A DNA stretch of 64,000 nucleotides. It comes from Marivita sp. GX14005. Lineage in GTDB: Bacteria; Pseudomonadota; Alphaproteobacteria; Rhodobacterales; Rhodobacteraceae. Location of the stretch: NCBI RefSeq assembly GCF_023370775.1, contig NZ_JAMCCQ010000002.1, forward strand, positions 682,001 through 746,000, read 5' to 3'. Positions within the stretch are counted from its first letter, which is position 1; the number at the start of each line of letters is the position of its first letter. The position numbers and the translations under genes were made by a program. A model generated the notes under the pieces. It saw nothing but the letters and a program-made list of their open reading frames with translations. It had not been told where the DNA came from and ran no database searches. Shown here in pieces: positions 1 to 12,152 of this stretch.

Positions 1-790
1 GCAGGCGCTCGAGCACCGTCTTGTTCTTCTTGACCACGAACAACCACGGTCGCTGTTCCGGGCTGATGTTCATCTTCGCGGCAACTGCCGTGTTGAAGTC
101 GCCCTTGTCGCTCCGATTCGTTGCAGCATTGGGACGGACCGACATGTCCTTGTCGATCAGTCCGACCCCCACTGCTGGGAGCTCGTCAGCATCCGCGATG
201 GTGGCAAAACCGAGAAACCCCTCGTCCAGGCGGATCTGGGTCTGTGCTCTCAGGTTGTTGTGCAGGCCGGCGAGCACGATGATGATTTTGTAACCTGCGT
301 CGGCGGCCTTGCAGATCAGTCCGGTATAGTTGCCTGTCTTCCCCGATTGGACGTGGCCCACGACCAGTCCGCGACGATCCCAGGCGCCTTCCCGTGTCGG
401 GTCCTCGAGCTGCGAAAGGACTTCGTCAGTGGCGACATCGAGAGCATCTAGGGCCGTCCAGGGGATCCGCGCTTCCATGTACTCCGAGTAACGCTGCCAA
501 TAGGTCCAGCCCTTCTTCCTTTCTGCATCAAGCCAGGCGACATGATCCTCACCGCTCGACAGGGTTGCGTTCTCGCCCACAGTGCGGCTTGAACGGCGGA
601 TCAGCTCGTCAACGAGCGCGTCCCTATCAACAAGGGCGAAATCGTCCTCCATCATGATCGACAGCTTGGTCAGCTCCTTCTCGATCATTTCCGGAGTGAC
701 AGGGCTCTGAGCGCGTTCCGCAGCAAGGCGGAGCATGTTCTGGGCCATGGAAAGGATTGAATCGAAGGCCTTCTGGTTTGAAATCGTCAT
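1..790 (-). CDS. Z1-domain P-loop protein of a GHKL/Z1 defence operon (3' end outside window)
   Basis: Only the N-terminal 263 residues are in the window; the gene continues past the left edge. A Walker A motif (GHVQSGKT) lies at about residues 145-152, followed by a hydrophobic strand (KIIIVLAGLHNNL) as in Z1-family (PF10593) proteins. Z1 proteins are helicase-like or endonuclease-like ATPases known from restriction-like defence islands, usually beside a MutL/MORC-type GHKL ATPase, as here. The start ATG at 790 overlaps the stop of the upstream ATPase gene by 4 bp (ATGA), so translation is probably coupled. Catalytic residues beyond Walker A fall outside the window. The family call is from motif and context, not a search. 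Confidence 0.8.
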   Translation of the reverse strand, partial: MTISNQKAFDSILSMAQNMLRLAAERAQSPVTPEMIEKELTKLSIMMEDDFALVDRDALVDELIRRSSRTVGENATLSSGEDHVAWLDAERKKGWTYWQRYSEYMEARIPWTALDALDVATDEVLSQLEDPTREGAWDRRGLVVGHVQSGKTGNYTGLICKAADAGYKIIIVLAGLHNNLRAQTQIRLDEGFLGFATIADADELPAVGVGLIDKDMSVRPNAATNRSDKGDFNTAVAAKMNISPEQRPWLFVVKKNKTVLERL

Positions 791-2289
791 TGCGTGTCTT
801 TCGCTTCAAGGGCTGCAACCAGGTCGAGGTGCCGGTCGAATGGGGGCGTGCGACCGAGCCGCTCGCGTGCCTCGGTCGGGCTGAGCCCGCGGAACTTCAC
901 CAGTGCTTCAAACATCGAGGACAGGGTCTCCATCACCTCGTTCTCGGCCGCTCCGGTGAAGCCAGTTCTCGGCGTCTCCTTGTCTTCCGCCGTATCCAGC
1001 CAGATACGCTGCACGGGCACTGTCTCTTCGATAAGCCTCAGAAGAGCGAGGATGTCGGACTTGAGTGGACCGGCGCGATCGAGGATCGAGGCGACAAGAT
1101 CATGGTCACGAGCGATCCGGTAAGACGTTCCTTGTGCCGAACGCCGCGCTTGCCATGCTTCGGCGACTGCGTTCGGGCGCGTGCCTGAGGCCGGGATCAC
1201 GTGTCCGCGGTGGGCGAAGACCCGCCGCGCCGTGTCGCGTGTTTCTGTTGCGAGACGATGAAGCTGGGATCGCAGACGCACCGGGGGGCTGGCCGTCGAT
1301 TTCAGGACATTGATCTTCCAATCGGCATCCGCGCTGTTCGGTATGTCGAGCCGAATACGTGCGAGCCTGTGAGCTTCATCGCGCGGCCATGGTTTGCCGC
1401 CATCGCCGAGGCCAAGCCACCCCCCAGCGAGAAGGAGACGCTTGTTGCGGTAGACGTAGAAGCCCTCCTGCTGCGTCCATCCCCCGGGCCCCGCCGCCGC
1501 TTCCTGCTCGGCAGGTTTGAGCATGTCGCGATGCGGAAGGACGTGGCATTGCACGGTCACACCGGTGGTGTGGAGGATCCGATACTCCGGACTTTCGAGC
1601 GCCTTGCCGGGATGACCGATGAGGTACGGATCCCAAGGCTTCAACCCTCTGCCATTGAGCGAGAGGCGCAGAATAGGCTGTTGGCCATCGATGAGGCGAT
1701 GGAAGGTCATCGCAAGATGCGCCTCCACGCGATCCGCGAGCTCGATCATGTCGGTGGCCACGAAGCCATCCGTCACGATACGGTCCAGTTTCTCCCAGAG
1801 TACGACGGTGCCGTGGGCCATCTGATCAAGCGGCGCGAGCAGATGCTCTGATCCCGGCGCCGGTCCCTCGAAGAGCGGCCAGTCTGCCCCGGGTTCTTGA
1901 CCGATGAGATCGAGGTCCCAGCGCAGGCAGACGACCGGTCCACCTTCCTTCCGACTGGCGACGGTGAGGCGACGGGCCTGAGAGAAGCTGGCCGTCTTCA
2001 AGCCGAGCCCGAAGCGCCCGAGGTCGGTGGCGGCGCGTTCAGCCCTCGGATCGCGAGCGCCAAGACGCATGCCCGTCTCCAGAGCCGCGTCGTCCATGCC
2101 GTCGCCGTCATCGACGATACTTACCCAGCTATCTGGACCGGCCCACTCAAGATGAACGGCGACGTCGCGGGCATTTGCGGCGATGGAATTGTCGACCAGA
2201 TCGGCAAGTGCGGTGGGAGGCGCATAGCCGAGTCCACGAAGGGACTCGAGCATCGACCCGGCATGAGGAGGAGCATTTCTTACACCCAT
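787..2289 (-). CDS. GHKL (MutL/MORC-like) ATPase, defence operon
   Basis: This 500-residue protein has an N-terminal Bergerat-fold ATPase. The N-box is DLVDNS (residues 30-35), the ATP-lid start is DDGDGM (60-65) and the glycine motif is GRFGLGLK (91-98), the pattern of MutL/MORC-like HATPases of bacterial restriction-like systems (HATPase_c_3). The C-terminal half has no motif I can name. The ATG at 2289 is preferred because it lies 4 bp after the sigma gene's stop; an in-frame ATG at 2352 would sit inside that gene. Its own stop overlaps the Z1 start. In known systems these ATPases are thought to act with the Z1 protein and a nuclease on DNA. The exact reaction is unknown. Confidence 0.85.
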   Translation of the reverse strand: MGVRNAPPHAGSMLESLRGLGYAPPTALADLVDNSIAANARDVAVHLEWAGPDSWVSIVDDGDGMDDAALETGMRLGARDPRAERAATDLGRFGLGLKTASFSQARRLTVASRKEGGPVVCLRWDLDLIGQEPGADWPLFEGPAPGSEHLLAPLDQMAHGTVVLWEKLDRIVTDGFVATDMIELADRVEAHLAMTFHRLIDGQQPILRLSLNGRGLKPWDPYLIGHPGKALESPEYRILHTTGVTVQCHVLPHRDMLKPAEQEAAAGPGGWTQQEGFYVYRNKRLLLAGGWLGLGDGGKPWPRDEAHRLARIRLDIPNSADADWKINVLKSTASPPVRLRSQLHRLATETRDTARRVFAHRGHVIPASGTRPNAVAEAWQARRSAQGTSYRIARDHDLVASILDRAGPLKSDILALLRLIEETVPVQRIWLDTAEDKETPRTGFTGAAENEVMETLSSMFEALVKFRGLSPTEARERLGRTPPFDRHLDLVAALEAKDTQ

Positions 2290-2293
2290 CCCG

Positions 2294-4498
2294 TCACATC
2301 CCCAACAATTCGCGGAGCCTACGCTTGCGGCCCGGATGGGAAAGTCGATCAAGGCCCTTCGCTTCGATCTGACGAATGCGCTCGCGCGTCACGCCGTAGA
2401 TCTGACCGATTTCCTCGAGGGTCATGTCGGTCTCGCGCCCTATACCAAAGCGCATCCGGATCACATCAGCCTGACGTTCCGGCAGATCAGCCAGCGCTTC
2501 TGTCACGATCCTTTCGGTTTCTGCCTGGTCGAAGACATCCACTTCTGAAGGCTCGGGCAGCAGGTTGTCCCAGTCGTCAAGGCTTGCGGGATATTCGGCT
2601 TCACGTGGGATGCCGCGGAACTGTCTGACCTCGTCGATTGTCCATTCGAGCTCTTCGGCGAGTTCGAGGTCGGAGACGCCGCCACCGACCCGAACATCCA
2701 GCCGCTCGAGCGCGCGATCGAGCTTGGTGATCTTCTCGTTCCGATGCACTGGGATGCGGATCGCCGCGCCTTCATCAGAACGCCATCGCGTAATGGCCTG
2801 TCGCATCCAGTAAGTGGCGTAGATGAGGAAGCGATAACCACGCTCGGGATCAAATCGCCTTGTGGAACGCTGCAGACCCATGAACGCCACCTGGAACACG
2901 TCCTCTGGATCCTCGCCTTCCTCCACGTTCCGCGAGGCAAACCGCCGCACGTAAGGCAGATGCTCGCGGATTAGGTGCTCGGTAGCAGATTCGGAAATCA
3001 GTATTTCGGCTTCCAGCTGACTGGCCTCGGCTTGGCACGCTGGGAACTGTTCCAGTCTACGGACCAACTCCTTGTGAAATGCGAGCGAGAGATCCAATGC
3101 CTCGAGCGCAGCAAGTGCCTCTCTTCGTCGTTTGCCATCCATCACACGGCCAGTAGTGTGCCACGACCTCAGGGTGTCCGCGGCGGCCATTACTTGAGAC
3201 GTCTCCGCATGACCCGGGCGTGAAGGAATGATCGTTCTCAGGGAGACCGAGCCGGGGTCTCGTGAACCGTCGCGGATGCGGTCCATGACGTCGAGGATTG
3301 TTTCGACGGCGGTCTCGGAGGCCAAGATGCCCAGCTGGAGTTCCTGCTTGGCCCGCATCATGGGCTCCAGCAACTGCAGCTCTTCCGACTTATCCATGAC
3401 GAAGCGCTTTGTGCCGGGAAGCAGCGTTCGACGCGTAAGGGCTGCCTCTATCGCGTCAGCAAGGTCATCGGACGATGTGTCCGAGACGGCGTCCCAGAGT
3501 TCGACATCATGCCCCGTCGCCTGAGTGAAATCGAAGCCCGCTGCTTCGAGGTTGCGCTGGAGATTGATACGCAGTTCCTCGAGATCACCATTCCCTTCGC
3601 AATGGACGACCAAGTGGTCGATATCGTCGAGGGAGCACCGACCCTTTGCCAGAATCTCCTCTGCCCAGGTGAAGCAGAGCTCCGGGTCGATCGACATCCG
3701 CGTGCCGGTCTGGACGACAGCGCGTTTGACCGATTGCCGGCCGCGGGTCCGGACTTTCAGGAAGTCGTTCTCTGCACCATGATCGGCCGTCACCGCAGCG
3801 CTGGAGCCGATGCCTTCTCCAGCAATCGGCGCAGCTGAAAGGTCGAGATCCCAATCACCGTCCTCGTTATCCGAAACCACTGGTGACGAACTGATGAGCG
3901 CTACGAATGTCCCCGATGCCGTATCGCCCGCGTACTGATCGAAGAATTCCTCTGGTTCTGCCTCAGCTTCGAAAGTCAGCAGGTCATCCAGGTCGTCAGC
4001 CCTATCCGCGTCGGCATCTCCATCTGCTGGCTCAGTTTCCTGAACCCCGGCGATACGGTGCTCTGGAACTGAGTCGGGCGCGGCAACGACAGTCTCGACC
4101 CCGGGTGGAACCTCGCGCTCGCCAACCGTCTCTGTTTCCGTCTCCGTAGACCCCGCAACAAGCGAAGACAGAAGCTGCGCGGCGAGACCGTGACCTTCGG
4201 CAAATGCCACATCCGCAGGTGTCTGTCGGTCGTGGTTCAGTGCGGCGGGGTCGGCACCTGACCGAATGAAGAGATCGCAGACGGCCAGATTGCCCATGCG
4301 CGCGGCAAGGTGGAGCGGTGTATCTCCTTTCGCGTCGGCGGCGTGGAGGCGAGAAGATGCCGCAAATTCGGCAAGCCTCTCGAGCATCCCTTCGGCGATC
4401 AGCCGGATCTCGAAAGGCCCAAGAACATGGCTTTCCGGTTCGCTCTTCGCCTGGTCGCGACTGCCGAGGATGCGGGACAGTCTATCCATGATCTTCAT
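2294..4498 (-). CDS. Ankyrin-repeat / full-length sigma-70 factor fusion
   Basis: This 734-residue protein has ankyrin repeats at about 53-113 (GDTPLHLAARMGN, then a second degenerate copy), an acidic low-complexity linker at about 115-265, and a sigma-70 factor to the end. A region 1.1-like segment lies at about 270-325 and region 1.2-like at 375-405, followed by a non-conserved spacer. Region 2 is at 505-575 with the -10-recognition motif YATYWMRQAITRW, region 3 at 592-628, and region 4 at 667-733 with helix-turn-helix YGVTRERIRQIEAKGLDRL. Regions 2 and 4 look like RpoD, not ECF sigma. The ATG at 4498 has a strong ribosome site (GGGAGG) and overlaps the WYL gene by 17 bp. It probably directs RNA polymerase to defence promoters; that is inference. 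Confidence 0.85.
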   Translation of the reverse strand: MKIMDRLSRILGSRDQAKSEPESHVLGPFEIRLIAEGMLERLAEFAASSRLHAADAKGDTPLHLAARMGNLAVCDLFIRSGADPAALNHDRQTPADVAFAEGHGLAAQLLSSLVAGSTETETETVGEREVPPGVETVVAAPDSVPEHRIAGVQETEPADGDADADRADDLDDLLTFEAEAEPEEFFDQYAGDTASGTFVALISSSPVVSDNEDGDWDLDLSAAPIAGEGIGSSAAVTADHGAENDFLKVRTRGRQSVKRAVVQTGTRMSIDPELCFTWAEEILAKGRCSLDDIDHLVVHCEGNGDLEELRINLQRNLEAAGFDFTQATGHDVELWDAVSDTSSDDLADAIEAALTRRTLLPGTKRFVMDKSEELQLLEPMMRAKQELQLGILASETAVETILDVMDRIRDGSRDPGSVSLRTIIPSRPGHAETSQVMAAADTLRSWHTTGRVMDGKRRREALAALEALDLSLAFHKELVRRLEQFPACQAEASQLEAEILISESATEHLIREHLPYVRRFASRNVEEGEDPEDVFQVAFMGLQRSTRRFDPERGYRFLIYATYWMRQAITRWRSDEGAAIRIPVHRNEKITKLDRALERLDVRVGGGVSDLELAEELEWTIDEVRQFRGIPREAEYPASLDDWDNLLPEPSEVDVFDQAETERIVTEALADLPERQADVIRMRFGIGRETDMTLEEIGQIYGVTRERIRQIEAKGLDRLSHPGRKRRLRELLGM

Positions 4499-5342
4499 GA
4501 ATGACCTCCCTGTTGAGAAGCACGATCTGCTGGTCCTGCGGCTTCCTCGCGCCGGGATCAGTATCAAGCCCCAGACGCCTGAGCGCGTAGTAAAGCAGCG
4601 CGCGCCGGACCTTGATCTTCGCCTTGCCGCCACGCATCCCGTAGTCGAGCGCGATGACCTTTGCCTGAGTTTCCGACAGTGCGGGGTGGGGACCGACCTC
4701 CAGCGTGACCTCGGAATGCCAGTCACTATCATCGTCGGCCGACGCTTCGCTCTCACGCGATCCGCGGATCTCCAGCATCCGTGAGAGGAGGAAGTCCTTG
4801 AAGCAATCGTCTGTCAGGCAGAACGCCCGCGTATGCCAGCGGAACCCGTCGAACCCGATGGCGTGCGGAGCGATCCAGCGCCAGCGCGGCTCGAAGCTGG
4901 AGAGGGACTGATACTTCACCTCGATCGCCTCGGACCGGCGGATGGCGCCGACGACCGAACGGAGCGTCACCGGATCGACGCCCCGCACAGGCGTCGGGGC
5001 AGATGCATAGGGTGGCAGGTCAGGGATCCAGCAGTCGTCGCGCTCCAGCACATCGTCGGCAACCAGGCGGAGCTGGGCGAGGTAATGCGCTGCGTCTGGC
5101 GGGCGGAACTTGCAGTCGAAGTCCGGGCCGCGGACATAGGTGCGCGCGCTCTTGTCGTAGAACATGTTGTCCGGCGCCAGCGCGATGTAGCGATTCAGGT
5201 CCGAGGATGCCTGGTTCACCGAAACGCCGAACTGCTGCATCACGTCGATGCGGTTGACGTGCCCCTCCCAGAACAGGCGGAATTCGATGAACTCGAGCCG
5301 CTGCTCGATCCCCCAGCGAAGTTCAGCCTTGTCCCTGTCCAC
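4482..5342 (-). CDS. WYL-domain transcription regulator, CapW/BrxR-like
   Basis: From the GTG at 5342 the product is 286 residues; a TTG at 5390 would add 16. The GTG is preferred for its GGGAG ribosome site 6 bases upstream. The N-terminus is a winged helix with the family signature RLEFIEFRLFWEG followed by QFGVSVNQAS. A WYL domain follows in the middle (VKYQSLSS, then WRWIAPHAIGFDGFRWHTRAF) and a C-terminal WCX-like segment closes it. The closest known relatives by motif are BrxR and CapW, repressors that head BREX, CBASS and other defence operons and respond to infection or DNA damage. Being first in this operon fits autoregulation plus control of the sigma, ATPase and Z1 genes. Confidence 0.88.
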   Translation of the reverse strand: MDRDKAELRWGIEQRLEFIEFRLFWEGHVNRIDVMQQFGVSVNQASSDLNRYIALAPDNMFYDKSARTYVRGPDFDCKFRPPDAAHYLAQLRLVADDVLERDDCWIPDLPPYASAPTPVRGVDPVTLRSVVGAIRRSEAIEVKYQSLSSFEPRWRWIAPHAIGFDGFRWHTRAFCLTDDCFKDFLLSRMLEIRGSRESEASADDDSDWHSEVTLEVGPHPALSETQAKVIALDYGMRGGKAKIKVRRALLYYALRRLGLDTDPGARKPQDQQIVLLNREVIHEDHG

Positions 5343-5440
5343 ATTGCGCTCCCGTCCAGCCCCGCGCGCACGCGAACTGTGCGCGCCCAATTTCTGGGCT
5401 GCTCACACGCTATCGAAGCGGAAAGGTGCCAGCAATCAAA

Positions 5441-7446: not shown

Positions 7447-8441
7447 GCCTTGCCGAACTGATCTGTCCCGCCGGAACGCCAGCGGCGCTGCGCACCGCCG
7501 TCGATGCTGGCGCCGATGCCGTCTATTGCGGTTTCCAAGACGCCACCAATGCGCGCAACTTTCCGGGGCTGAATTTCACGCCGGATGAGATGCAGGCCGC
7601 TGTCGCCTATGCCCATGCGAAGGGAACGAACGTGCTTCTGGCGCTCAATACCTATCCTCCGGCAGGCCAGGTGGATCTGTGGCGGCAGGCCGCCGATGCC
7701 GGGGCGCGGTTCGGCGTCGATGCCTTCATCGTGGCCGATATGGGGGTCGCCGATTACATCGCGCGCACCCATCCGCAGGTTCGGCTGCACCTGTCGGTGC
7801 AGGCCGCCGCGTCCAGCCCCGAGGCGATCCGCTATTATTGCGAGAATTTCGGCGTCAAGCGCGTGGTGCTTCCCCGCATCCTGACGATCCCCGAGATCCG
7901 CCAGATCCGCACGGAAATCCCTTGCGAGATCGAAACGTTCATCTTTGGCAACCACGGGCTTATGGTCGAAGGGCGCTGCAGCCTGACCAACTACCTGACC
8001 GGACAATCGACGAATATGGATGGCGTCTGCTCTCCGGCGTCCGACGTGCAATACCAACGGCATGAGAACGGCTCTATGTCCTCGCAACTGGCCGGGTTCA
8101 CCATCGATTGCTTCGGCGCCGAGGAAAAGGCGGGCTACCCGACGATCTGCAAGGGCCGCTATACCGCGCCGCATCGCAAGGAAGGCTATTATGCCTTCGA
8201 GGAGCCGGTGAGCCTCAACCTGTCGCGGCTTCTGCCCGAACTGATCGACGCGGGTGTGCATGCGTTCAAGATCGAGGGGCGGCAACGCTCCAAGAGCTAT
8301 GTGCGCGGGGTCGTGACGGCATTCCGCAAGGCGGTGGACGACATCCGCGCCGGCCGACCGGCAGACATGGCCGATCTCGTTGCGCTGACCGAAGGGCAGA
8401 AACAGACGCAAGGCGCGTTCGAAACGAAGAAATGGCGGTAA
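7443..8441 (+). CDS. ubiU: UbiU, U32-family protein for O2-independent ubiquinone hydroxylation
   Basis: The 332-residue U32 (peptidase-like) protein starts with the family pattern LICPAGTPAALRTAVDAGADAVYCGF. The cysteines of its 4Fe-4S cluster are seen around VEGRCSLTNYLTG and DGVCSPASDVQY, with another in IDCFGAEEK. With UbiV it hydroxylates ubiquinone precursors without oxygen, using prephenate as donor in the E. coli system. The ATG overlaps ubiT, and only 3 bp separate it from ubiV. Length and order match the ubiTUV group of facultative anaerobes. Confidence 0.93.
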   Translation: MSLAELICPAGTPAALRTAVDAGADAVYCGFQDATNARNFPGLNFTPDEMQAAVAYAHAKGTNVLLALNTYPPAGQVDLWRQAADAGARFGVDAFIVADMGVADYIARTHPQVRLHLSVQAAASSPEAIRYYCENFGVKRVVLPRILTIPEIRQIRTEIPCEIETFIFGNHGLMVEGRCSLTNYLTGQSTNMDGVCSPASDVQYQRHENGSMSSQLAGFTIDCFGAEEKAGYPTICKGRYTAPHRKEGYYAFEEPVSLNLSRLLPELIDAGVHAFKIEGRQRSKSYVRGVVTAFRKAVDDIRAGRPADMADLVALTEGQKQTQGAFETKKWR

Positions 8442-8444
8442 AAC

Positions 8445-9356
8445 ATGACGAAACTGACACTGGGCCCGATCGCTTATCACTGGTCCGCAGAAAGACGGCG
8501 CGATTTCTATGCGCGCATCGCCGATGAAGCGCCGGTCGATGAGGTGTATCTCGGCGAGGTCATCTGCTCGAAACGCGCTCCGTTTCACGAGGCCGATCTG
8601 CCCGCCACCATCGAACGGCTGGAGCGCGCGGGCAAGACGGTGATTCTGTCCAGCCTTGCCGAAGTCATGCTCAGGCGCGAGCGCAAGGCGACGGAGGATC
8701 TGGCCGCGATGGACAGCCCCGAGATCGAGATCAACAATGCCGCCGGGCTCTATGCGCGGGGTAAGCGGGCGCATCGCATCGGGCCGTTCATGAACGCCTA
8801 TAACGAGGCGACCATCGCCTGGACGGCCGGGCAGGGCGCGACCCATGTTTGCCTGCCGGGCGAATTGCCCGCGCAATCCATCGCGGTCGCGGCGCAGGCC
8901 GCGCGCGGTCTGGGACTCGGGGTGGAAGTTCAGGTGTTCGGTCGCGCGTCGCTGGCGGTCTCCGCGCGCTGCTATCACGCCCGCGCGCATGGCCGCACCA
9001 AGGACAATTGCCAATTCGTCTGTGAAGAGGACGATGACGGCATGCCCCTGCGCACGACCGACGACCGGCCCATCCTGCGGGTCAACGGGATCCAGACTCA
9101 ATCGGAAAGCTATGTCGATCTCCTGCCGGAGATCGGACAGCTTGCGCAGCACGGTGTCACCCACCTGCGCCTCATGCCTCAGGATGTCGATATGGTCGCG
9201 GTTGCCGAACTGTTTCGTGCCGTCGCGGACAAAAATCAGGCTCTGGACGAGGCGGAAGCGCGCATGCGGCAGCTTTGCGGCGATGTGCCATTCAGCAACG
9301 GGTTTTACCACGGCACGGCCGGGTATCGGAGAATTGCGTCGGCGGCAGCCGGTTAG
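8445..9356 (+). CDS. ubiV: UbiV, U32-family partner of UbiU
   Basis: The 303-residue U32 protein begins KLTLGPIAYHWSAERRRDFYARIAD and contains VYLGEVICSKR, ARCYHARAHGRTKDNCQFVCEED and a distant N-terminal cysteine, which together supply the four cluster ligands known for UbiV (C..C..C..C). It forms the UbiU-UbiV heterodimer that performs anaerobic hydroxylations of ubiquinone. It ends the ubiT-ubiU-ubiV unit. The following gene is a secreted protein with its own ribosome site. Confidence 0.93.
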   Translation: MTKLTLGPIAYHWSAERRRDFYARIADEAPVDEVYLGEVICSKRAPFHEADLPATIERLERAGKTVILSSLAEVMLRRERKATEDLAAMDSPEIEINNAAGLYARGKRAHRIGPFMNAYNEATIAWTAGQGATHVCLPGELPAQSIAVAAQAARGLGLGVEVQVFGRASLAVSARCYHARAHGRTKDNCQFVCEEDDDGMPLRTTDDRPILRVNGIQTQSESYVDLLPEIGQLAQHGVTHLRLMPQDVDMVAVAELFRAVADKNQALDEAEARMRQLCGDVPFSNGFYHGTAGYRRIASAAAG

Positions 9357-9446
9357 GCCATAGCCAGGCCGCTTCAAAGGGACGCCGGACTGGATTTTGA
9401 ACGGGTTTCGTGTATCCTACGGTCATTGCCACAGGGGGATTTGAGC

Positions 9447-10712
9447 ATGAAACGTCATTCCATCGCGGCGCTCGTCGCGGCTTCCATGGTGGCCTCCGTG
9501 CCGGGCTCCGCTTCGGCGGACGCCAAGGACGCGCTGATCGGCGGTATCGTCGGTGCCATCATTCAGAAGGGTATTTCCGACAGCCAGCGGGCCAAGCCGC
9601 AGCGGAAGGTCTACCAGAAATCCTCGAAATCCAAAAAGAGGACCTACACGGCGCCGAGCCTGAACAGCCAGTATTCGCGCTCCGAGCGCATCCAGATCCA
9701 GAGCGCCTTTCGGGATTTGGGGTATGGCATCGGCACGGTCGACGGCGTTCTCGGCCAGAACAGCCGGCGCGTGATCCGCCAGTTCCAGGCTTCGCGCGGA
9801 GAGGCGCAGACCGGACAGCTCACGCGCGCGCAATACGTTGCGCTTTTGAGCCAGACGCCCGGCGCCACGCCGGTCTTCGCGCAGCGTCCGCTTTCGGGCG
9901 ATGAAGTGCGCATGTTGCAGCAGGGCTTGCAGATGCTCGGCTATTATCGCGGACGGATCGACGGCGCCAAGGGGCCGGGCACGCGCGGCGCGCTCAATGC
10001 CTTTCTTGCGCAGCAGGGGTTGAACCCGGTTCAGGTGACGCCGGTTCAGGGGCTTGTGCGCGCGCGCACCGCCGCCGGATTGCAGACGCCGCGCTATCTC
10101 CAGCAGGAAGCCGGCAACCAGATGGCCGGGGCGCAGCCCTTCGGCCAGCAGCCGCAGCAAGCCTTCGGTCAACCGCATATGCAGCAACCGGGTTTTGCAG
10201 CGCCGGGCCAGCCGCAGGCGAACCCGTTCGGCACACCCGCGCAGAATGTGCCGCAGGGCTATGGCGTGCCGGGTCAGGCGATGCCGGGGCAGGGCGGACA
10301 GTATGTCTCTGCGCCGGGGCAGGTCGCACCGGGGCAGCAGCAGATGTTCGGTGTGGCGCAACCGCAGCCTCAAATGCAACGGCCCGGCGCGGCACAGCCG
10401 GTCGCGACATCGCTCTTCGGTGCGCCGCAGCCGCAGCCGCAGCCACAAGTGCCCGGCGCTGCCGCGCCCGTCGCAAATCCGCAGCAAAACCTCTTTGCAC
10501 CGGCCGCGCCTCAGCAGCAGCTCGCACCGCAACCGGCTGCGCCGCAAAACGGTCAGGGCGGCACCGCACTCTTCGCCTCGGGCGGAGCGGTCGCGCCGCA
10601 GGCAGTCGCTCCGGCGCAGCAAGCCTCGCAGAGCAGCCTCGATATCTTCACCGGATCGGCGCAGGGCACGACCATTGCGCAGCCGAACGAGGTCGCCGGT
10701 CAGTCCCAATAG
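9447..10712 (+). CDS. Secreted peptidoglycan-binding-domain protein with Gln/Pro-rich tail
   Basis: The 421-residue protein starts at the ATG at 9447, after a GGGGG ribosome site, with a Sec signal peptide (KRHSIAALVAASMVASVPGSASA). A glycine-zipper-like stretch follows (DALIGGIVGAIIQKGI), then two PG_binding_1 repeats: SERIQIQSAFRDLGYGIGTVDGVLGQNSRRVIRQFQ and a second at about residues 155-190. The C-terminal 200 residues are low complexity, rich in Gln, Pro, Ala and Gly. It is probably a periplasmic or outer-membrane protein tethered to peptidoglycan. A strong terminator follows, so it is likely transcribed alone. No enzymatic motif is seen. Confidence 0.8.
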   Translation: MKRHSIAALVAASMVASVPGSASADAKDALIGGIVGAIIQKGISDSQRAKPQRKVYQKSSKSKKRTYTAPSLNSQYSRSERIQIQSAFRDLGYGIGTVDGVLGQNSRRVIRQFQASRGEAQTGQLTRAQYVALLSQTPGATPVFAQRPLSGDEVRMLQQGLQMLGYYRGRIDGAKGPGTRGALNAFLAQQGLNPVQVTPVQGLVRARTAAGLQTPRYLQQEAGNQMAGAQPFGQQPQQAFGQPHMQQPGFAAPGQPQANPFGTPAQNVPQGYGVPGQAMPGQGGQYVSAPGQVAPGQQQMFGVAQPQPQMQRPGAAQPVATSLFGAPQPQPQPQVPGAAAPVANPQQNLFAPAAPQQQLAPQPAAPQNGQGGTALFASGGAVAPQAVAPAQQASQSSLDIFTGSAQGTTIAQPNEVAGQSQ

Positions 10713-10756
10713 GCGGCTGGAACCAAAGCCCGCAGGTTGCGAAGGTCATCGGAAGA

Positions 10757-10784
10757 CGCCCGCCATTCAGGCGGGCGCTTTTTA
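10757..10784 (+). terminator. Intrinsic terminator of the peptidoglycan-binding gene
   Basis: CGCCCGCC (10757-10764) pairs with GGCGGGCG (10770-10777) around a 5-base loop, followed by CTTTTTA. Its T-tract overlaps the stop codon (TAA at 10782-10784) of the convergent gene. Confidence 0.85.
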
Positions 10785-12152
10785 TTCCGATGCCGCGCCT
10801 TCGGGAGGTTCCGCGTCCTGTGACCCGGCATCGTCGCCTTGCTGCTCTTCGTTCGGTTCCGGCGACGCAGCAGCCGACGCCTCGGGAGCATCTTCGATCG
10901 CTGTGAAGCGCCCCCTGAACTGGAACGCGCCGGTCTCGCGCATCTCGCCGCTTGGATCGATTTCCAGAACCACGGCGCGACCTTCGACCGGTGCCACGGA
11001 CGCCGTGACGTTGTTGAAATCGATCCCGCCGAAGAGCGTCAGGAACCTCTGTGCGCCGGGGTTGTTGCGTAGCCCGCTCACATTGGTCATCAGTTGCGGC
11101 GCCGCAATTCGCATGATGAAGCTCGTCGCCCCCACGGCAGCCGAGCCCGAAACCGGATAGGTCGCGCCCACTGTCACGCCAGTGCTGCGCCCCTGCGCCG
11201 TGCCGTTTGCCACCGCGCGAAACCCGTCCTGTTCGAACCGCACCGTCGCATCGAGGCTGAGCGGCTCGGACTGGAGCGCCAATTCGCTGGAAATGTCGAG
11301 ATAACTCGGCTGGCTCAGCGTCGGATGCGCGAAGGTCTTGACCCGCACGACCGCGTTGTCCGACAGGCCGAACAGCTGCGCGTCGGTCGGGATCACCTGC
11401 GTGCGATGGGTGCCGTCATTGGCCGCCTGCATCCGGTAGCCGACGATGGAGTAAAGCTGCCGACCGAAGGTTTCGAACAGCGTGCGCGCGTCATTGCTGC
11501 TCAGTTGCAGCGTCCGGGTGAAGGGAAAGGCCGGTCCGGCGCGCTGGCCTTCCTCGTTCTCGACGGTGAAATTCCACGGAAACGTGCTGGTATCGACCTC
11601 GGTGCCCTGAAGCATCTGGCGCGCGCATTGCTGACCCTGCTGCGCCGTGATGGTCGAGCCGAGCTGTTCCCCGACGCTCTGGATCGACGTGAACGGCAAT
11701 TGCCCGGTGGTGAAATCATATTGTCCGGTATCGACCTTGTAGCTGACTTCGAACCGCTGGGTGATCGCCTTTCCGGCGATGACCTGCTGCAGCTGCGGCA
11801 TCACCTCGAAGGAGCGCGTGAAAAAATCGCGCCGCTCGAATTCGTTGGAAAACGCGTCGCGGCAATAATTGTCGAGCTTGGTCGAGATGAGGTAAGACAC
11901 GAGGCTGACATAAAATTGCGGATCGCTCAGATAATTCGGATTGGCCTTGAGATAGAGGAAGAGGGATCTGGGATAGGCTTCCTGCATCGAAAGGTCGTTC
12001 GCGGCGGCCACGATATCGACCTTGGCGGCGCGCCCGGTCTGTGCCGAAAGAACCTGCGCCTCGGCGCCTTGTTGGGCGCCGAAGGCACTCATGAGGACGA
12101 CGGCCGCCGCCAATCGCCGAAGCGAAGCGCTCGTGTTACGGATTGCACGCAT
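10782..12152 (-). CDS. Secreted protein of unknown function
   Basis: The 456-residue protein has a clear signal peptide ending near AAVVLMSAFGAQQGAEA. The mature part has two halves: a helical N-terminal part with a YCRDAFSNEFERRDFF segment and one other cysteine (QQCARQM), and a beta-rich C-terminal part. The last 35 residues are acidic and low complexity (EPNEEQQGDDAGSQDAEPPEG). I do not recognise the family. It is convergent with the peptidoglycan-binding protein gene, with an upstream gap of 75 bp to the next minus-strand gene. A periplasmic or envelope role is the most that can be inferred. Confidence 0.7.
   Translation of the reverse strand: MRAIRNTSASLRRLAAAVVLMSAFGAQQGAEAQVLSAQTGRAAKVDIVAAANDLSMQEAYPRSLFLYLKANPNYLSDPQFYVSLVSYLISTKLDNYCRDAFSNEFERRDFFTRSFEVMPQLQQVIAGKAITQRFEVSYKVDTGQYDFTTGQLPFTSIQSVGEQLGSTITAQQGQQCARQMLQGTEVDTSTFPWNFTVENEEGQRAGPAFPFTRTLQLSSNDARTLFETFGRQLYSIVGYRMQAANDGTHRTQVIPTDAQLFGLSDNAVVRVKTFAHPTLSQPSYLDISSELALQSEPLSLDATVRFEQDGFRAVANGTAQGRSTGVTVGATYPVSGSAAVGATSFIMRIAAPQLMTNVSGLRNNPGAQRFLTLFGGIDFNNVTASVAPVEGRAVVLEIDPSGEMRETGAFQFRGRFTAIEDAPEASAAASPEPNEEQQGDDAGSQDAEPPEGAASE

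Follow-up and report, generated by a model that had tools for sequence, protein, structure and literature searches.

A CapW-family regulator gene and a sigma factor gene in an MZA-type defence operon of Marivita sp. GX14005

At the left end of a 64,000-nucleotide stretch of the Marivita sp. GX14005 genome (hereafter the window; contig NZ_JAMCCQ010000002.1, positions 682,001 to 746,000), four minus-strand genes belong to an operon that, by family matches, is almost certainly an MZA-type mzaABCDE set, with a gene for a WYL transcription factor standing before that for MzaA, an ankyrin-bearing sigma factor. We favour the reading, with a probability of roughly 0.55, that it is a CapW-repressed MZA system whose sigma factor reinforces transcription of its own operon. 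In such a system CapW would repress the operon, the host RpoD would start transcription, MzaA would then sustain it, and MzaBCDE would act on DNA without the methylase mark (to judge the enzyme roles from their families); the reinforcing role of MzaA, taken by itself, is proposed tentatively, at slightly below even odds. A sequence-only reading of the window had suggested an operon that switches on its own transcription programme, an idea compatible with the results. The features concerned are:

2-790, minus strand: fourth minus-strand gene, at the left window edge (a Z1 protein in the sequence-only reading)
787-2289, minus strand: MzaB, GHKL (MutL/MORC-like) ATPase, 500 amino acids, start ATG at 2289
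2294-4498, minus strand: MzaA, ankyrin repeat and RpoD-like sigma70 factor, 734 amino acids, start ATG at 4498, with GGGAGG
4482-5342, minus strand: CapW-family WYL transcription factor, 286 amino acids, start GTG at 5342
5366-5384, minus strand: inverted repeat GCGCAC-N7-GTGCGC, candidate CapW operator (or leader hairpin)
5386-5398, minus strand: inverted repeat CCCAGAAATTGGG, near the expected transcription start
5407-5435, minus strand: putative sigma70-type operon promoter (TTGCTG at 5435-5430, 17-bp spacer, TAGCGT at 5412-5407)

The gene layout described earlier was confirmed, all four genes being intact and linked by a 17-bp overlap, a 4-bp gap and a 4-bp overlap. PADLOC, a check that the sequence-only reading had proposed, called MzaA, MzaB, MzaC, MzaD and MzaE in this order, and all five NCBIfam MZA models (NF041931-NF041935) matched as well. 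For MzaA, NF041931 was the best match (242.6 bits vs 173.9 for RpoD), accompanied by PADLOC MzaA (6.2e-33), Pfam Ank and Sigma70 r2 and r4, and RpoD/SigA chains in the PDB (from 8.8e-40). MzaB was matched by PADLOC (1.2e-170) and Pfam HATPase_c_3 (1.1e-27), MzaC by PADLOC (E = 0), MzaD (PD-(D/E)XK, DUF4420) by PADLOC (1.1e-54) and Pfam (3.3e-77), and MzaE (AIPR) by PADLOC (2.4e-159). All five proteins score under the NCBIfam equivalog cut-offs, which are naming thresholds separate from the gene-content definition (243 of 800 bits for MzaA, 656 of 850 for MzaB, 1181 of 1500 for MzaC, 278 of 420 for MzaD and 694 of 1050 for MzaE); because of this the operon is, on sequence grounds, labelled a divergent branch of MZA, hence "MZA-type". 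The genes predicted to lie beyond the left edge (PD-(D/E)XK nuclease, AIPR and a C5 methyltransferase) are present in the leftward sequence, which also holds a Vsr gene.

The mzaABCDE system was reportedly introduced by Gao et al. in Science in 2020. The title of NF041931 is "MZA anti-phage system associated sigma-70 family RNA polymerase sigma factor MzaA", and a 2022 paper (PMC9523054, in which Gao 2020 is reference 52) refers to mzaA as "a sigma factor" and describes mzaABCDE as validated; the sigma gene is therefore a known MZA component, not the novel partner, unfamiliar from described systems, for which it had been taken. Other parts of the earlier interpretation held: the set appears to be a defence operon headed by a CapW/BrxR-type WYL gene, and the left-side genes were found. 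Besides the MZA genes, the window locus has capW, a conserved leader and DUF2971, methyltransferase and vsr genes. In MORC/paraMORC restriction-modification neighbourhoods (Iyer 2008, PMC2292703), too, a GHKL ATPase is accompanied by a cytosine methylase, Vsr, helicases and AIPR; the word "sigma" is absent from the available part of that text. New here are the capW-family gene behind a conserved putative sigma70-type promoter with two dyads, the GcrA-like modules in some MzaA proteins, and a sigma gene before Ssp/Pbe genes.

Conservation of the sigma gene next to the GHKL gene, which the sequence-only reading had set as a test, was found in one clade only: the two genes stand side by side in 37 of 83 loci, all in the MZA clade and including alpha- and gammaproteobacterial records, and sigma is missing in 43, all outside it, while the remaining 3 end at contig edges. 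The count of 37 out of 37 for the clade covers loci whose upstream side is in the available sequence, and the split with and without sigma corresponds to one change on the tree (SH-aLRT, the Shimodaira-Hasegawa-like approximate likelihood-ratio test, 98). In a Thalassospira locus of the sigma clade, the NCBI annotation names MzaE, and a sigma-70 family gene stands directly before the GHKL gene. Many of the 43 sigma-less loci resemble systems with the MZA effector plan, of which only a few are reported to have mzaA (PMC9523054).

The WYL protein is, judged by its matches, a CapW-family regulator: phmmer aligned it with solved CapW (9c5g, 2.4e-61; 7tb6, 1.6e-58) and with BrxR (7t8k, 2e-38), and the alignment spans the winged helix-turn-helix and WYL parts (query 6-281 to CapW 7-283). 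TTG 5390 was ruled out as its start, as it sits within the conserved dyad. The block upstream of the WYL gene is conserved, with mostly unrelated flanks beyond. A model of this promoter block, built from 14 loci, found it in 20 of the 37 sigma loci (weakly in L034, E 0.03), at one place per locus; the sigma-less loci gave no match, and neither the window nor locus L002 gave a further one. The pattern TTGnnn-N17-TAnnnT, picked after inspection of these related sequences, is present in 19 of the 20 block-bearing loci (all but L022), with a background of 0.005 per 60-base search. Over 17 distinct rows, 95.6% of cells are paired in the dyad at 5386-5398 (two of four pairs invariant) and 92.2% in that at 5366-5384 (one pair changed on both sides). 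In 19 loci the first dyad is found downstream of the putative -10, at a distance of 8-10 bases; the published binding sites of CapW are palindromes that overlap the -10 of the operon (PMC9122588). The symmetry of the leader fits an operator, and palindromes near the promoter would be shared with CapW/BrxR repressors; the WYL gene here stands upstream of MZA, not CBASS or BREX. Covariation support for an RNA hairpin in the leader is weak (both sides vary in 1 of 10 pairs); among 500 shuffles, the observed value was reached by 45 for cells paired, 176 for pairs changed, 16 for cells changed, 457 for pair types and 23 for the score.

Residues and regions were compared in 30 main-clade MzaA proteins, with five basal rows kept apart and the fragments L017 and L028 left out. 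Mean identity to the own RpoD in regions 2.1, 2.2, 2.3, 2.4, 4.1 and 4.2 was 0.20, 0.23, 0.55, 0.56, 0.56 and 0.74 in the main clade, and 0.61, 0.68, 0.83, 0.64, 0.56 and 0.78 in the basal rows. Of the promoter-reading residues (E. coli numbering), R584, E585, R588, Q589, Y430 and Q437 are kept in 30 of 30 and W434 in 29, while T440 is kept in only 14 and W433 is replaced by Y or F. Since these residues are largely RpoD-like, MzaA could use the promoter of its own operon. At the core-contact positions of region 2.2, D403 is kept in 29 of 30 and Q406 in all, and E407V, N409F and M413Q are changed in all 30.

Furthermore, the MzaA-specific linker (window 3029-3886) was searched in 394 genomes of the family and found in 10, in 7 of them beside mzaB. 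The other three matches are in genomes G840 (L155), where it lies before Ssp/Pbe genes, G894 (L154), and G910 (L156), which holds remnants. L155 encodes an 864-amino-acid MzaA-type sigma (9025-11619, minus strand). Behind it, in the same orientation, come a 520-amino-acid open reading frame (ORF) without matches (7685-9247), then sspB, sspC, sspD, pbeA and pbeC, an arrangement listed for L155 from the sigma gene downstream and for L161 (2896-4998); no mzaB-E was found in this locus. Same-strand ORFs without family matches also precede the sigma gene, so the operon may begin before it, and the 520-amino-acid ORF had no other match in 100 family genomes. A MADS match nearby was discarded, being an oligopeptide ABC-transporter ATPase. 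L154 has an ankyrin-sigma gene of the MzaA type (8243-10471, plus strand) followed by a 359-amino-acid ORF without family matches, and no mzaB in the 2.9 kb up to the contig end; a second sigma in this locus is 79% identical to the L038 sigma of the same genome, which we take to be of the RpoH type. The MzaA-type sigmas of L154 and L155 fall inside the MzaA clade of the window (33 rows, SH-aLRT 99), on long branches that leave their exact place unsure. The phosphorothioate defence locus L155 would share the MzaA-type sigma with MZA but not mzaB-E, a single case, as no further sigma-Ssp pair was found in 308 genomes of the class or in a scan of viral contigs.

Several points weigh against a CapW-repressed, self-reinforcing MZA system. 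The NCBIfam scores of all five Mza proteins stay under their cut-offs, and the link to Ssp comes from one genome. Of the 37 sigma loci, 18 have an intact capW (>580 bits) and 5 a partial one, while the model finds none in the other 14, so capW is not required; some of the capW-less loci are at contig ends, tblastn shows short capW stretches in L026, L028 and L034, and Pfam shows no common gene upstream of mzaA in WYL-less loci. The standard consensus promoter scan did not call the operon promoter, which would also suit host RpoD, so that its use by MzaA is not singled out. Finally, the divergence of regions 2.1 and 2.2 could mean weaker or different core binding.

That divergence, beside DNA-reading positions that are mostly kept (region 4.2), also points to the strongest rival, that MzaA is a DNA-targeting subunit, which we consider unlikely. 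GcrA-like DNA-binding modules were found in 8 of the 37 MzaA proteins, by a model built from three copies in L010, and their presence requires 5 changes on a 36-row MzaB tree, as if the choice of DNA were under selection. In the host, GcrA, a sigma70 cofactor of Alphaproteobacteria, is a free-standing protein, whereas here the module is fused into the sigma factor. L014, L015, L016 and L021 have one module at the C terminus, and the others are:

L010, 6720-10016, plus strand: sigma factor with three GcrA-like modules
L024, 2530-5901, plus strand: sigma factor with four GcrA-like modules
L025, 6378-9992, plus strand: sigma factor with two GcrA-like modules
L031, 6693-10016, plus strand: sigma factor with three GcrA-like modules

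In L010, L025 and L031 modules occur at the C terminus too (in L025 also with a zinc ribbon), and Pfam PF07750, run on two of the eight proteins, supports the modules in both (L010, 1.3e-45; L025, 2.2e-34); neither Pfam nor our model found one in the MzaA of the window. According to PMC7987155, GcrA assists sigma70 as a cofactor at promoters with methylated GANTC. Reading of GANTC in the operon promoter was rejected, with no pattern among the module-bearing loci: GANTC lies near the -10 in L024, is absent in the inspected stretch of L014, L015, L025 and L031, and in L016 is found only further downstream, as in many module-less loci (L010 and L021 gave no promoter-block match). Targeting by MzaA is opposed by the relatives with the same plan but without sigma (assumed to be active) and by the MzaA-type sigma that precedes Ssp genes.

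Even less probable is a guard, in which MzaA would be a competitor for core RNA polymerase whose state is altered by phage factors that remove or block sigma70, freeing the effectors via ankyrin or linker. Ankyrin, a protein-binding fold, was matched in 34 of the 37 MzaA loci (32 by our own model, scored per locus, L020 and L061 by Pfam), a long linker is common to the window-clade MzaA, L154 and L155, and the proteins differ in the length of the N terminus but not in the sigma part, all of which would suit such a sensor; against it, no partner was seen, no ankyrin was found in L011, L030 or L032 (own model or Pfam) or in the Ssp-linked sigma, and sister systems exist without sigma. A chance neighbourhood, an ordinary group 2 sigma or remnant beside a restriction-like operon, draws on sister systems that manage without sigma, but is refuted by the adjacency in all 37 clade loci across alpha- and gammaproteobacterial records, the open frame, the overlapping genes and the NCBIfam name, and is very improbable.

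In line with the favoured CapW-repressed MZA system, the MzaA-type sigma before Ssp/Pbe genes is easier to reconcile with a transferable transcription module than with a component adapted to MzaB. It is possible, though doubtful, that MzaA is the type member of portable RpoD-derived defence sigmas, with a conserved linker and exchangeable ankyrin sensor and GcrA DNA-reading modules, attached to unrelated modification-based operons (MZA, Ssp/Pbe) and giving them dedicated phage-proof transcription. Among the literature matches listed, in their available parts, surveys name or count MZA, and neither a mechanism for it nor a role of its sigma turned up; with subscription papers mostly outside the search, these matches also gave no account of MZA sigmas fused to GcrA or of Ssp operons that include a sigma gene. 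Should the sigma be a transferable switch, defence systems could carry a piece of the basal transcription machinery with them, and this would bear on resistance to phages that shut off host sigma70. The promoter with its dyads, the CapW-type regulator, the split with and without sigma, the GcrA-fused sigmas and the sigma beside a phosphorothioate system are testable pieces.

On mobility, a plasmid search with MzaA at 1e-60 gave no match; the L155 sigma, searched at 1e-20, matched 51 plasmid records covering at most 39% of the query, many labelled RpoD. Three phage records carry distant MzaB relatives (29-35% identity). Two IMG/VR viral contigs (L159 and L160) encode MzaA 92% and 85% identical to that of the window, at or near contig ends, hinting at carriage beside prophage-like elements. 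Directly before the promoter block, L009, L014, L015, L025 and L073 share similar sequence that by eye resembles the last part of a recombinase gene, a possible clue to island mobility. Between mzaE and the methyltransferase lies a gene for a DUF2971 protein (PADLOC PDC-S31; L002, 8220-9107, minus strand), which has matches in five loci among the 31 from L004 to L034 and in three sigma-less loci (L118, L119 and L121). The defence island is adjoined by a gene-transfer-agent-like cluster with GTA_TIM, DUF2793 and M15 peptidase genes (L002, 40-5712; about -13960 to -8288 in window coordinates).
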